Positions 14,586-57,053 of a stretch of DNA of 64,000 nt are shown here, one piece after another; position 1 is the stretch's first letter; each line of letters begins with the position of its first letter. The notes beneath the pieces were generated by a model. The model worked only from the letters and a program-made list of their open reading frames with translations. It did no database searches and was not told the origin of the DNA. Source of the stretch: Pseudanabaena sp. Chao 1811 (GTDB lineage Bacteria; Cyanobacteriota; Cyanobacteriia; Pseudanabaenales; Pseudanabaenaceae). The position numbers and the translations under genes were made by a program. The stretch lies in assembly GCF_027942295.1 (NCBI RefSeq), contig NZ_CP101416.1:1240001-1304000 (forward strand), written 5' to 3'.

Positions 14586-14729
14586 TTAACGCGAGTTCGG
14601 AATAATTTGAAATGGGCTTTGAGAGAGGGTTTGCATAGTAAACTCTCTCTCAAAGCCCAAAAGCAAAAGCCTTGCTACGCAAAGCTTTTGCTTTTGGGCT
14701 TTTAAAATGTGCCAGCTTAACCTGAACTG
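14586..14729 (-). repeat. Composite MITE-like repeat, copy 1 (reverse orientation)
   Basis: It contains two stacked hairpins, GAGAGAGGGTTTGC-type and AAGCAAAAGCC-type, flanked by TTAACGCGAGTTCGG on the left and CCAGCTTAACCTGAACTG on the right. The same arrangement recurs at 39720-39829 and 61133-61262. The repeat supplies the last codons and the TAA stop of the histidine kinase gene. Confidence 0.7.
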
Positions 14730-22826: not shown

Positions 22827-22877
22827 GAAATCAAGCAATATAGGCGGCACTTTGTGCCGCCTATATTGCTTGATTTC
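22827..22877 (+). terminator. Perfect 24-bp hairpin after DUF2330 gene
   Basis: Two perfect 24-base arms (starting GAAATCAAGCAATATAGGCG) with loop TTT begin seven bases after the stop at 22820. The tail ATTGTCTTT is only mildly T-rich. The stem is far longer than termination needs. Confidence 0.6.
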
Positions 22878-33664: not shown

Positions 33665-33715
33665 CAGATAAATTTTGAAAAAGCTTGCTTCGCAAGCTTT
33701 TTCAAAATTTATCTG
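33665..33715. repeat. Perfect 24-bp hairpin between ndhM and sigma gene
   Basis: Arms starting CAGATAAATTTTGAAAAAGC pair perfectly over 24 bp, loop TTC, apex AAGCTTGCTTCGCAAGCTT. It lies between the sigma gene terminator and the ndhM promoter region. Confidence 0.65.
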
Positions 33716-42374: not shown

Positions 42375-42409
42375 ATAAAATAACTGGTGTTACGTGGAAG
42401 GTTGTAAAG

Positions 42410-42508
42410 CCCTCACCCCTAGCCCCTCTCCCGCAGGAGAGGGGAACAAGAAAATAATATGGGTTTTACTCCCCTTCTCCTGCGGGAGAAGGGGTTGGGG
42501 GATGAGGG
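42410..42508. repeat. CCCTCACCCC palindromic repeat, copy 1
   Basis: The segment opens CCCTCACCCCTAGCCCCTCT and closes with the near complement (AGGGGTTGGGGGATGAGGG), with internal CTCCCGCAGGAGAG and CTCCTGCGGGAG palindromes. A second copy lies inside menE at 45669-45746. Confidence 0.7.
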
Positions 42509-42526
42509 TTCCACTTAACGCTTCTC

Positions 42527-45273: not shown

Positions 45274-46860
45274 ATGCAATTTCCCAATTGGCTATCGCAA
45301 AGAGCTGTTCAAAAAAAAGAAGCGATCGCACTTATCTCCAGATCTCCCAATCATCCAATAGCACATTGGACATATGCCCAATTGGAAACTGAAGTTAATC
45401 GTTGGGTAGAGCATTTACAATCCTTGGGGATAAAATCAGGCGATCGCGTTGGTTTGTTGCTAACTAATCAGCCCCAATACATCATGTTGGTTCATGCGTT
45501 GGTGAAATGTGAAGCCGTAGCTGTCTTTTTGAATATTCGTCTTACTGTTGATGAATTACATTGGCAATTAGAAGATAGTCAAACCAAATATCTTATTTGT
45601 GATGAATTTACTCAGTTCATAGCTCATGATTTGGGAAGTGATATAGAGAACTTAATAGTTGAGAATTGCCCTCACCCCCTAGCCCCCTCTCCCGATGGGA
45701 GAGGGGGGACAGGAAGATTTTCTCGCTCTGAGCGAAGGTTGGGGGTAGATGGCTTACTTAACTTAGAGGATATACAGGGGATTTTTTATACTTCGGGAAC
45801 AACTGGGAAGCCAAAGGCAGTTCCATTAACCTATAGTAATCATTTTTATAGTGCGATCGCTTCAACTTTAAATCTAGGCACTTATGAAGATGACAACTGG
45901 TTACTATGTATGCCTCTGTTTCATGTGGGGGGACTAGCGATCGCATGGCGAAGTGTGACTAATGGAACTACGATTACACTGTTACCGAAGTTTGATGAGC
46001 AGGAAGTACTAGAAGCGATCGCTAATGAAAAAGTGACGATCATTTCCCTTGTGCCGACCATGCTGACTCGCTTATTAAAACATCCCCACTGGCAAAATCT
46101 TCAAAATCTACGTGCAATTCTCTTGGGTGGCGCACCTGCTAGTAAGGAATTAATTGAGCAATGTCTGCAATTAAATTTACCGATAATGCCGACCTATGGC
46201 ATGACCGAGACGGCTTCTCAAGTTGCTACATTGTTATCTCATGAGGTCACTCTCAAACAAGGTTCTTCGGGTTTACCGCTATTTGGTAATCGATTTCGCA
46301 TAGTAAATTTAGATAATCCTCAACAAGAAGTTCCCATTGGTGAAGTTGGACAAATCCTTGTGCAAGGCGCAAGTGTGATGAATGGCTATCTCCACCAGAT
46401 AGAGAATAATGCGGTTAAGGATGGTTGGCTATATACAGGAGATCTCGGTTATTGCGATCGCGATGGCTATCTCTATGTGGTCAGTCGTCGCTCCGACTTG
46501 ATTATCAGTGGTGGTGAAAATATTTATCCTACGGAAATCGAATCGATTTTGTTAGAACATCCTGCAATTTTAGAGGTCTGTGTAGTGGGAATTAGCGATC
46601 GCGAATGGGGCGAGATCGTGTCAGCAGTAATGGTGACTAGAGCAGAGTTATCACTGGATGATGTGAGAAGCTTTTGTGAACAAAGATCGCTAGCTCGCTA
46701 TAAATTGCCAAAATCCATCCATATTTGGGAATCTCTACCCAAAACCGCTTCAGGTAAATTATTACGCCAAAAGATTCGCGAACATTTAGATTGTAGTGTT
46801 GGTAATTTCACCGAAGGTGAGAATCCCAACACTACAATAGATGCGGGTTTTCAAGAATGA
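45274..46860 (+). CDS. menE: o-Succinylbenzoate-CoA ligase MenE with two palindrome-encoded insertions
   Basis: MenE activates o-succinylbenzoate with ATP and CoA in phylloquinone/menaquinone synthesis. The 528-residue adenylate-forming enzyme has P-loop YTSGTTGKPKAVP, MPLFHVGGLAIAWRS, GMTETASQ, the YTGDLGYCDRDGY hinge region and the catalytic lysine in LPKTASGKLLR. About 26 residues between the N-terminal domain and the P-loop (PHPLAPSPDGRGGTGRFS) are encoded by a CCCTCACCCC repeat (45669-45746), and the C-terminal tail by a 49-bp palindrome (46790-46838). Both keep the frame. The product name rests on general similarity; an acyl-CoA synthetase of other specificity is possible. Confidence 0.75.
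   Translation: MQFPNWLSQRAVQKKEAIALISRSPNHPIAHWTYAQLETEVNRWVEHLQSLGIKSGDRVGLLLTNQPQYIMLVHALVKCEAVAVFLNIRLTVDELHWQLEDSQTKYLICDEFTQFIAHDLGSDIENLIVENCPHPLAPSPDGRGGTGRFSRSERRLGVDGLLNLEDIQGIFYTSGTTGKPKAVPLTYSNHFYSAIASTLNLGTYEDDNWLLCMPLFHVGGLAIAWRSVTNGTTITLLPKFDEQEVLEAIANEKVTIISLVPTMLTRLLKHPHWQNLQNLRAILLGGAPASKELIEQCLQLNLPIMPTYGMTETASQVATLLSHEVTLKQGSSGLPLFGNRFRIVNLDNPQQEVPIGEVGQILVQGASVMNGYLHQIENNAVKDGWLYTGDLGYCDRDGYLYVVSRRSDLIISGGENIYPTEIESILLEHPAILEVCVVGISDREWGEIVSAVMVTRAELSLDDVRSFCEQRSLARYKLPKSIHIWESLPKTASGKLLRQKIREHLDCSVGNFTEGENPNTTIDAGFQE
45669..45746. repeat. CCCTCACCCC palindromic repeat, copy 2, inside menE
   Basis: CCCTCACCCCCTAGCCCCCT and the closing AAGGTTGGGGGT match the copy at 42410-42508 at both ends. 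The internal palindromes are CTCTCCCGATGGGAGAG and TCGCTCTGAGCGA. The reading frame passes through without a stop. Confidence 0.75.
46790..46838. repeat. 49-bp palindrome at the 3' end of menE
   Basis: ATTGTAGTGTTGG and CCAACACTACAAT pair over 13 bp. Inside, TTTCACC and GGTGAGAA form a second stem around GAA. It codes for SVGNFTEGENPNTT, after the normal end of the enzyme. Confidence 0.65.
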
Positions 46861-56683: not shown

Positions 56684-56709
56684 AGTTACAGCGCTTTACG
56701 CTCAAACCC

Positions 56710-56768
56710 AAACCAAGATATTTTTTGAAAGACTGGCGAAGCCAGTCTTTCAAAAAATATCTTGGTTT
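56710..56768. repeat. Perfect 28-bp hairpin upstream of MerR-type gene
   Basis: Arms starting AAACCAAGATATTTTTTGAA pair without mismatch over 28 bp, loop GAA, apex GACTGGCGAAGCCAGTC. It is the longest perfect stem I found in the window. It lies in the 370-base gap 56684-57053 between divergent genes, which holds no gene, so it ends no visible transcript. Confidence 0.65.
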
Positions 56769-57053
56769 GTTTAATCGAAAATTTCTACATAAACCTACTG
56801 TTCCTCCCGCTAAGCGGAAGGCATAGCAGAAAAGCCATTGCAAAAAGAGTTGGAAACTTACTTTTTGCAATATGTTAATTGATAAGTTTTTTTTATAGGA
56901 CTTTTGGGTTTGCCCATCTTGACCTTGAAGCTAGCTGCAAGTCCTAACCTATGAGTCATGGGATAACTAATCGCCTAAAAGCTAAGTCCTCCCAAGGGAA
57001 TAGGAAGTCAAGAATAAATTAACAGTTGGTTGTAAGTTAAAGGTAATAAGGTC

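Follow-up and report, generated by a model that had tools for sequence, protein, structure and literature searches.

The menE gene of Pseudanabaena sp. Chao 1811 is read through a palindromic DNA repeat of the BoxC type. We favor the following reading, at a probability of roughly 0.7: an old BoxC pair entered menE in an ancestor within the genus and has stayed in its frame from then on, and it fits a wider explanation that includes a DUF559 nuclease as the partner of BoxC. The evidence comes from a 64,000-nucleotide stretch of the genome (the 64-kb window, positions 1,240,001-1,304,000), from the rest of the genome, a single contig of 4.73 Mb, and from related genomes.

menE and Its In-Frame Insert

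The menE product is an o-succinylbenzoate-CoA ligase. Its best solved relative is 5X8F, a 2-succinylbenzoate-CoA ligase, and it is closest to B. subtilis MenE. Among menE relatives with a named source, the best match comes from a Pseudanabaena. The gene is single copy in the genome (E ≤ 1e-60), its product scores above the family cut-off (Table 1), and its frame and catalytic motifs are intact, as the initial annotation had stated. Thus, a pseudogene is not indicated. An AlphaFold model of MenE from three sequences reached a pLDDT of 37.6, too low to inform on the insert.

Table 1. Features of the menE region, the ssb region and the DUF559-bearing genes. Positions are those of the window; for the last two rows they are those of the genome.
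Feature	Position	Strand	Evidence or remark
menE, o-succinylbenzoate-CoA ligase, 528 aa, intact	45274..46860	+	TIGR01923 431.9 bits vs. cut-off 330
In-frame BoxC pair in menE, 86 nt, residues 132-160	45668..45753	+	
Intact BoxC/TM unit of menE	45668..45708	+	R1 62.3 bits; triplex motif read directly
menE spacer and decayed second BoxC unit	45709..45753	-	Intact in G012
YTSGTTGKPK ATP-binding motif of menE, intact	45787..45816	+	11 codons past the insert
Single-copy palindrome, loop GAA, coding for the MenE C-terminal tail	46790..46838	+	
ACTGGTGTTACGTGGAA, terminal inverted repeat of MITE-like shell round intergenic BoxC pair	42383..42399	+	Absent from menE copy
Intact BoxC inverted pair 3' of ssb	42409..42509		Units 42409-42444 (+) and 42469-42509 (-)
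MmeI-type restriction-modification gene	~3,636-3,639 kb		In-frame DUF559 ~3637085-3637391 (L168 9247-9552)
Type ISP restriction-modification gene	~4,708-4,710 kb		In-frame DUF559 4709303-4709609 (L181 2667-2972)

A repeat at 45669-45746, said to add about 26 residues between the N-terminal part of MenE and the ATP-binding loop, had been described from the letters alone. Its presence and place hold: there is a repeat, here recognized as BoxC-type, and it lies before the YTSGTTGKPK motif. Its extent and effect on length need correction. The whole insert is an 86-nt pair coding for 29 residues, and the linker, 67 aa here vs. 53-57 aa in near relatives without the repeat, is only 10-14 aa longer. 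The linker is hypervariable, from 39 to 90 aa across the family. Relatives hold other sequence at the insert site, in two cases a different palindrome, rather than lacking exactly the segments seen here.

The intact unit of menE is recognized in the 64-kb window with an E of 9.5e-15, and its only full matches there are the two units of the inverted pair 3' of ssb, a location that the initial annotation had also picked out. The pattern CCCTCACCCCNNNNCCCC, with 3 mismatches allowed, has 8 matches in the window vs. 1.2 in shuffles. The reverse complement of the unit reads directly as CCCCCCTCTCCC-ATC-GGGAGAGGGGG-CTA-GGGGGTGAGGGC, that is, as a three-block intrastrand triplex motif. As single-strand DNA, the insert is predicted to fold at -23.7 kcal/mol (z -3.8). 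The second unit of the insert is recognizable as a weak match of 11 bits in G022, and in G012 the pair is intact on both sides (GCCCTCACCCCCCAGCCCCCTCTCCCAGAGGGAGAGGGGG...CCCCTCTCCCTCTGGGAGAGGGGTTAGGGGTGAGGGC). The intact pair of G012 shows that the insert itself is an inverted pair, the second unit of which has decayed. The reading frame, as read from the sequence, would be translated across the BoxC.

The initial annotation had added a 49-bp palindrome coding for the C-terminal tail of MenE. It does so, with 23-nt arms that are 87% complementary and a fold z of -7.4; it is not a repeat, as a genome search found no second copy. Thirty-odd matches of 16 of 17 nt, which might have made it an IS end, all came from one multi-copy IS-like sequence and were put down to chance. 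In G022, a sister species, the palindrome lies just after the stop codon, outside the ORF, with the loop TTC rather than the GAA of G000, the present genome. A 1-nt difference from G022 brings it into frame in G000 and G032.

Identity of the Repeat

BoxC, an element on record for E. coli from the 1990s onward, is widespread in cyanobacteria. Judged by its sequence, the menE repeat is this known element, also called PIT or TM, for intrastrand triplex motif. Its reverse complement has the order CCCCTCTCCC-loop-GGGAGAGGGG-linker-GGGGTGAGGG, a pyrimidine-purine-purine three-block motif that is a putative former of intrastrand triplexes, and the triplex rule holds exactly over at least 9 contiguous triads in 78 of 117 full-length units of the genome. 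A covariance model places at least 122 units in at least 70 clusters, both lower bounds, as the best 150 candidates were scored. The element is dispersed and multi-copy, and exact '+-' pairs make up 41 of the 70 clusters detected. In the class, BoxC is present in 23 of 38 sampled genomes at E 1e-9; a phylum-wide threshold of E 1e-12 was too strict to inform. No Rfam family matches the repeat at the gathering threshold.

The units of the genome match the TM_ECO/BoxC sequences given in PMC4666352. The elements described there have the same three blocks, CCCTCTCCC-loop-GGGAGAGGG-linker-GGGTGAGGG, are dispersed, often in inverted pairs, and are abundant in cyanobacteria. Pairs in that account lose their inner part, leaving a hairpin, as the menE pair has done in G018. 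There are two differences. The passages compared treat intergenic BoxC, whereas a third of the clusters detected here are in frame in long genes; and they name no mobilizing enzyme, whereas an association with DUF559 appears here.

BoxC inside Other Genes

A census of 56 genome stretches, made with a custom dicodon coding score on both sides of each cluster rather than with a standard gene caller, places 23 of the 70 detected clusters in frame within long ORFs. Eight of nine proteins pass the curated NCBIfam cut-off: menE, mnmE, coaBC, mutL, polA, ligA, cobG and cobB. Further hosts, named by reading, are mfd, cobN (with two inserts), an oxoprolinase, an NFACT-type protein, a UvrD-type helicase, and WD40 and CHAT proteins. 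Across these genes BoxC lies in both orientations and in several reading frames. By inspection, no out-of-frame BoxC insert was seen among the orthologs of five gene families, and phase variation by BoxC was rejected on that count.

In three other BoxC-rich cyanobacteria that were sampled, only 1 of the 43 copies with top scores lies in frame within a long gene. Therefore, the presence of BoxC is not enough to account for the in-gene load, which seems particular to the Pseudanabaena lineage.

Among the close known parallels are the palindromic elements of Rickettsia (RPEs), to which the initial annotation had likened the menE inserts. RPEs are short palindromes carried in frame in likely functional genes, several of them for DNA repair (PMC3733652). 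The likeness stands for the mode of insertion, given the 23 in-gene clusters of BoxC in many functional genes. It does not extend to the elements: the one here is BoxC and the tail palindrome is single-copy, BoxC lacks the CGTC tag that RPE-4 and RPE-6 have (PMC3733652), and the host here is a free-living cyanobacterium. The RPEs were compared by description only. In-gene REPs of the GTAG/CGTC families are known in many bacteria, many of them in genes for DNA synthesis or repair, such as those for DNA polymerase I, ligase and the uvr genes; over half are dimers or groups, and they encode 20-30 aa (PMC3733652). BoxC differs from them in having no tag and no adjoining RAYT here.

Inheritance and Decay of the In-Gene Copies

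The BoxC-bearing menE genes form one clade of the menE tree (support 0.98), and they share DNA as well as residues; a homologue with the same residues on unrelated DNA was not found among them. The states of the insert in the clade are as follows. The pair is intact in G012, is accompanied by a tandem duplication in G026, and is reduced to a single hairpin by an inner deletion in G018. It is half decayed in G000, G032 and G022, and fully decayed in G013, G014, G011 and G030. The frame is kept in every one of these members, decayed copies included. The history of the menE insert is thus one of in-frame events only, namely inner deletion, tandem duplication and decay, as the compared sequences show, and on the same comparison the insert is not recent. 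The relatives compared include no clean before/after pair for the insertion, because the linker varies in every one of them. Much of the genus also has BoxC at a single site in polA, in mnmE and in mfd, where copies have decayed or changed in length without loss of frame.

The menE of G024 (L082) is far more divergent than the polA and mfd of the same genome, against its species neighbors. This suggests replacement of that menE by horizontal transfer, a reading of the gene sequences.

Several of the in-gene copies stay palindromic, and fourfold degenerate sites inside recognizable in-gene units differ much less than sites outside them. Only copies still matching the pattern were counted, which biases the test to conservation and overstates it; with this bias, the differences observed vs. 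expected are 13 vs. 61 in menE, 83 vs. 356 in polA and 113 vs. 330 in mnmE, with a modest effect in mfd (86 vs. 128) and a weak one in ligA (6 vs. 8.6). In the menE unit, 3 of 39 sites differ between G000 and G012, and fourfold sites differ at about half. The conservation may stem from conversion that refreshes the units, from repeated insertion at one place or from constraint on the hairpin.

Other Palindromes at the Same Linkers

In some relatives, the linkers that carry BoxC in G000 hold unrelated palindromes. Orthologs of five genes contain 15 non-BoxC palindromes, and 13 of the 15 are at the BoxC linker site. LigA supplies 11 of the 13; because these are mostly one inherited palindrome, the independent events are fewer than 13. 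Counted as events, there are four at the BoxC site vs. two elsewhere (binomial p 3e-4).

The ligA palindrome, ATCAGGCAGATTTTGC-NNN-GCAAAATCTGCCTGAT, has compensatory changes in 4 pairs, a covariation score that was reached by 0 of 500 shuffles, and its loop triplet is found in both orientations, TTC and GAA. In the ligA of G017, the part of BoxC past the loop has given way to gene sequence from upstream, in exact reverse complement (ACCATCCATTTCCCCAGT.../...ACTGGGGAAATGGATGGT). We read this as one hairpin arm rewritten from the other, as would be expected of template switching in a snapped-back strand.

Two side observations concern further palindromes. The menE linker of G009 (L086) contains a palindrome with 26-nt perfect arms. 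In translation, its left arm aligns with the usual protein sequence (HLLHE) and its right arm does not. The window, for its part, holds seventeen long perfect or near-perfect hairpins with arms of 15-29 nt, mostly outside genes (among them 14652-14702, 22827-22877, 33665-33715 and 56709-56769), and a shuffled sequence holds none. In many of them the loop has 3 nt and is flanked by GC (GCTACGC, GCTTCGC, GCGAAGC).

Two Populations of BoxC

Many intergenic BoxC pairs are enclosed in a MITE-like shell of about 150 bp with the 17-nt end ACTGRTGTTACGTGGAA. The genome holds 38 such ends with at most 1 mismatch, the one at 42383-42399 of the window and 37 others. With up to 4 mismatches allowed, an end lies within 70 nt of 23 of the 47 clusters outside genes and of 0 of the 23 in-gene clusters (Fisher p 1.8e-5). 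The in-gene copies are thus bare. They are also mostly single units, the others being pairs (p 2e-4). At least some BoxC copies may have been spread by another transposase, given a shell with terminal repeats of its own. At least some other BoxC lie in a second shell, which has GCGTTAATATACTTGACGCACC, at genome positions 2491887, 2945423, 3813471 and 3864667.

A Nuclease Associated with BoxC

We know of no enzyme that spreads BoxC. A candidate is suggested by two restriction-modification genes of the genome, each with an in-frame DUF559 domain (Table 1). BoxC units bracket both domains, at distances of 8/53 nt and 97/27 nt. In Pfam terms, the MmeI-type host protein is split into MmeI_hel (171-248), DUF559 (299-398) and MmeI_Mtase (584-867), and the Type ISP protein has DUF559 at 291-395 and a two-part Type_ISP_C match. 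A like layout is found in a Pseudanabaena galeata plasmid, in an Eco57I/MmeI-like methyltransferase of 1621 aa, and in another cyanobacterial family (G139), in what by reading is a DUF1156-type methyltransferase. In E. coli, ycjD is a DUF559 gene with BoxC 167 nt away.

The association is seen in a wider sample. A triplex motif lies within 250 nt of DUF559 at 12 of 24 loci vs. 2.6% of control windows (p 2e-13), the controls being random stretches of the same loci rather than matched genes. The 24 loci are ycjD and 23 from a plasmid collection, which includes some misfiled chromosomes; they come from cyanobacteria, Proteobacteria and Deinococcus. The DUF559 loci as a whole were drawn from that collection and from a cyanobacterial query. 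When three cyanobacterial chromosomal loci are added, a repeat common to both flanks of DUF559 is found at 17 of 27 loci vs. 13 of 1252 control windows; the other 10 have no such repeat. Half of the sampled loci are without the strict triplex motif, and several of these, in Deinococcus, Picosynechococcus, Qipengyuania and Novosphingobium, have other C/G-rich repeats consisting of a head plus a hairpin. In the three records tested, the flank repeat recurs within the record: a Photobacterium replicon has it at 39 or more places, a Pseudanabaena plasmid at 10 and a Deinococcus plasmid at 3.

Among solved structures, the profile of DUF559 matches the endonuclease-like 3HRL with an E of 5e-36; it also matches 3R3P, a mobile-intron protein that we take to be I-Bth0305I, with an E of 5e-5. 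The conserved residues of DUF559 are D, E-x-D-G and H. DUF559 is thus in the fold family of the I-Bth0305I/Vsr-type endonucleases (3R3P, 1CW0), with conserved acidic and histidine residues. Its setting differs from theirs: here it lies in frame in methyltransferase genes, between BoxC, and no intron or intein was seen. In a separate observation, DUF559 sits at different points of the hpa and paa catabolic operons in different Deinococcus species (plasmids L340, L343, L349 and L353); such placement without broken genes is as expected of a mobile gene.

No paper reporting a DUF559-BoxC link was found in the literature searched, where the only two papers to mention both DUF559 and palindromes deal with unrelated matters. 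With moderate confidence, and from the neighborhood, we propose that a DUF559 nuclease of the Vsr/I-Bth0305I lineage spreads or carries BoxC-type repeats. On this evidence, DUF559 is the foremost candidate for a partner of BoxC, in the role that RAYT plays for REP. A more specific reading, to which we give an even chance, is that BoxC triplex repeats are the ends, or the non-autonomous form, of a DUF559-based mobile unit able to insert into genes in frame, above all into those for DNA methyltransferases; the menE copy would be one of the translated relics that it leaves.

Proposed History and Alternatives

The proposal for menE is that an inverted BoxC pair entered a tolerant linker in an ancestor within the genus and has been in frame ever since. 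Insertion of BoxC pairs into genes would occur at many points, and the copies to survive would be only those in frame at a flexible linker. Their hairpin DNA would be reshaped and refreshed during replication or repair, with one arm, or a BoxC copy elsewhere, serving as template for the other arm. Such copying would keep the palindromes well matched although neutral sites are close to saturation. The menE copy would be a nuclease-less member, or relic, of the DUF559-BoxC family.

The alternative that deserves most weight, although we think it the less likely course, dispenses with a dedicated enzyme: in-gene BoxC would be carried by passive duplication, recombination and gene conversion, and DUF559 and BoxC would both accumulate in unstable regions. 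TM motifs are tied to genome instability in PMC4666352, tandem duplication and inner deletion are seen in the in-gene copies, and DUF559 here lies in restriction-modification genes, which are variable regions. Against this, repeats lie tens of nt from DUF559, on one flank or on both, in ordinary operons as well (hpa and paa in Deinococcus, pnt in Sphingomonas, fabI-ycjD-sapF in E. coli), and 97-99% of control windows at the same loci lack such repeats. Much less credible is MITE insertion of the in-gene copies by ACTGRTGTTACGTGGAA ends and a matching transposase, by which intergenic copies may move; the ends are frequent round the intergenic clusters, but all 23 in-gene clusters lack them and are mostly single units, so that this route is disfavored for the copies in genes.

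Mobilization by RAYT, a Y1 transposase, as in the GTAG families, would make the repeat a REP or REPIN, and we rate it slightly lower still. BoxC does form dispersed inverted pairs of short hairpins, some in genes, and the genome has three Y1_Tnp genes. However, the GTAG/CGTC tag is missing, as BoxC starts with GCCCTCACCCC and ends with GGGGAG or similar, and no BoxC lies within 1.5 kb of any of the three Y1_Tnp loci, on which ground RAYT was rejected as the mobilizer. The resemblance is one of design: in REPtrons too, a small nuclease-type gene is flanked by dispersed palindromic repeats, the enzyme there being an HUH Y1 transposase and DUF559 belonging to the Vsr/I-Bth0305I fold family. Lowest of all, at next to no probability, stands the idea that the segments are ordinary variable linkers, with low-complexity Pro/Gly/Ser coding that resembles the repeat by chance. 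The hypervariable insert site would suit it, but the DNA-level match to dispersed copies outside genes refutes it; the same DNA is also read in differing frames and orientations across genes, and synonymous positions are conserved with the repeat.

Implications

With DUF559 as partner, the question of what spreads BoxC would have an answer open to direct test. The DUF559-based mobile unit, if it is real, would join RAYT-REP as a second pairing of nuclease and palindrome, built on an unrelated enzyme. Across the genus, the in-gene copies present palindromic DNA that was turned into coding sequence, kept in frame, rewritten from its own arms and replaced by other palindromes at the same linker. 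In-gene BoxC may thus be regarded as a natural experiment in the making of protein linkers.
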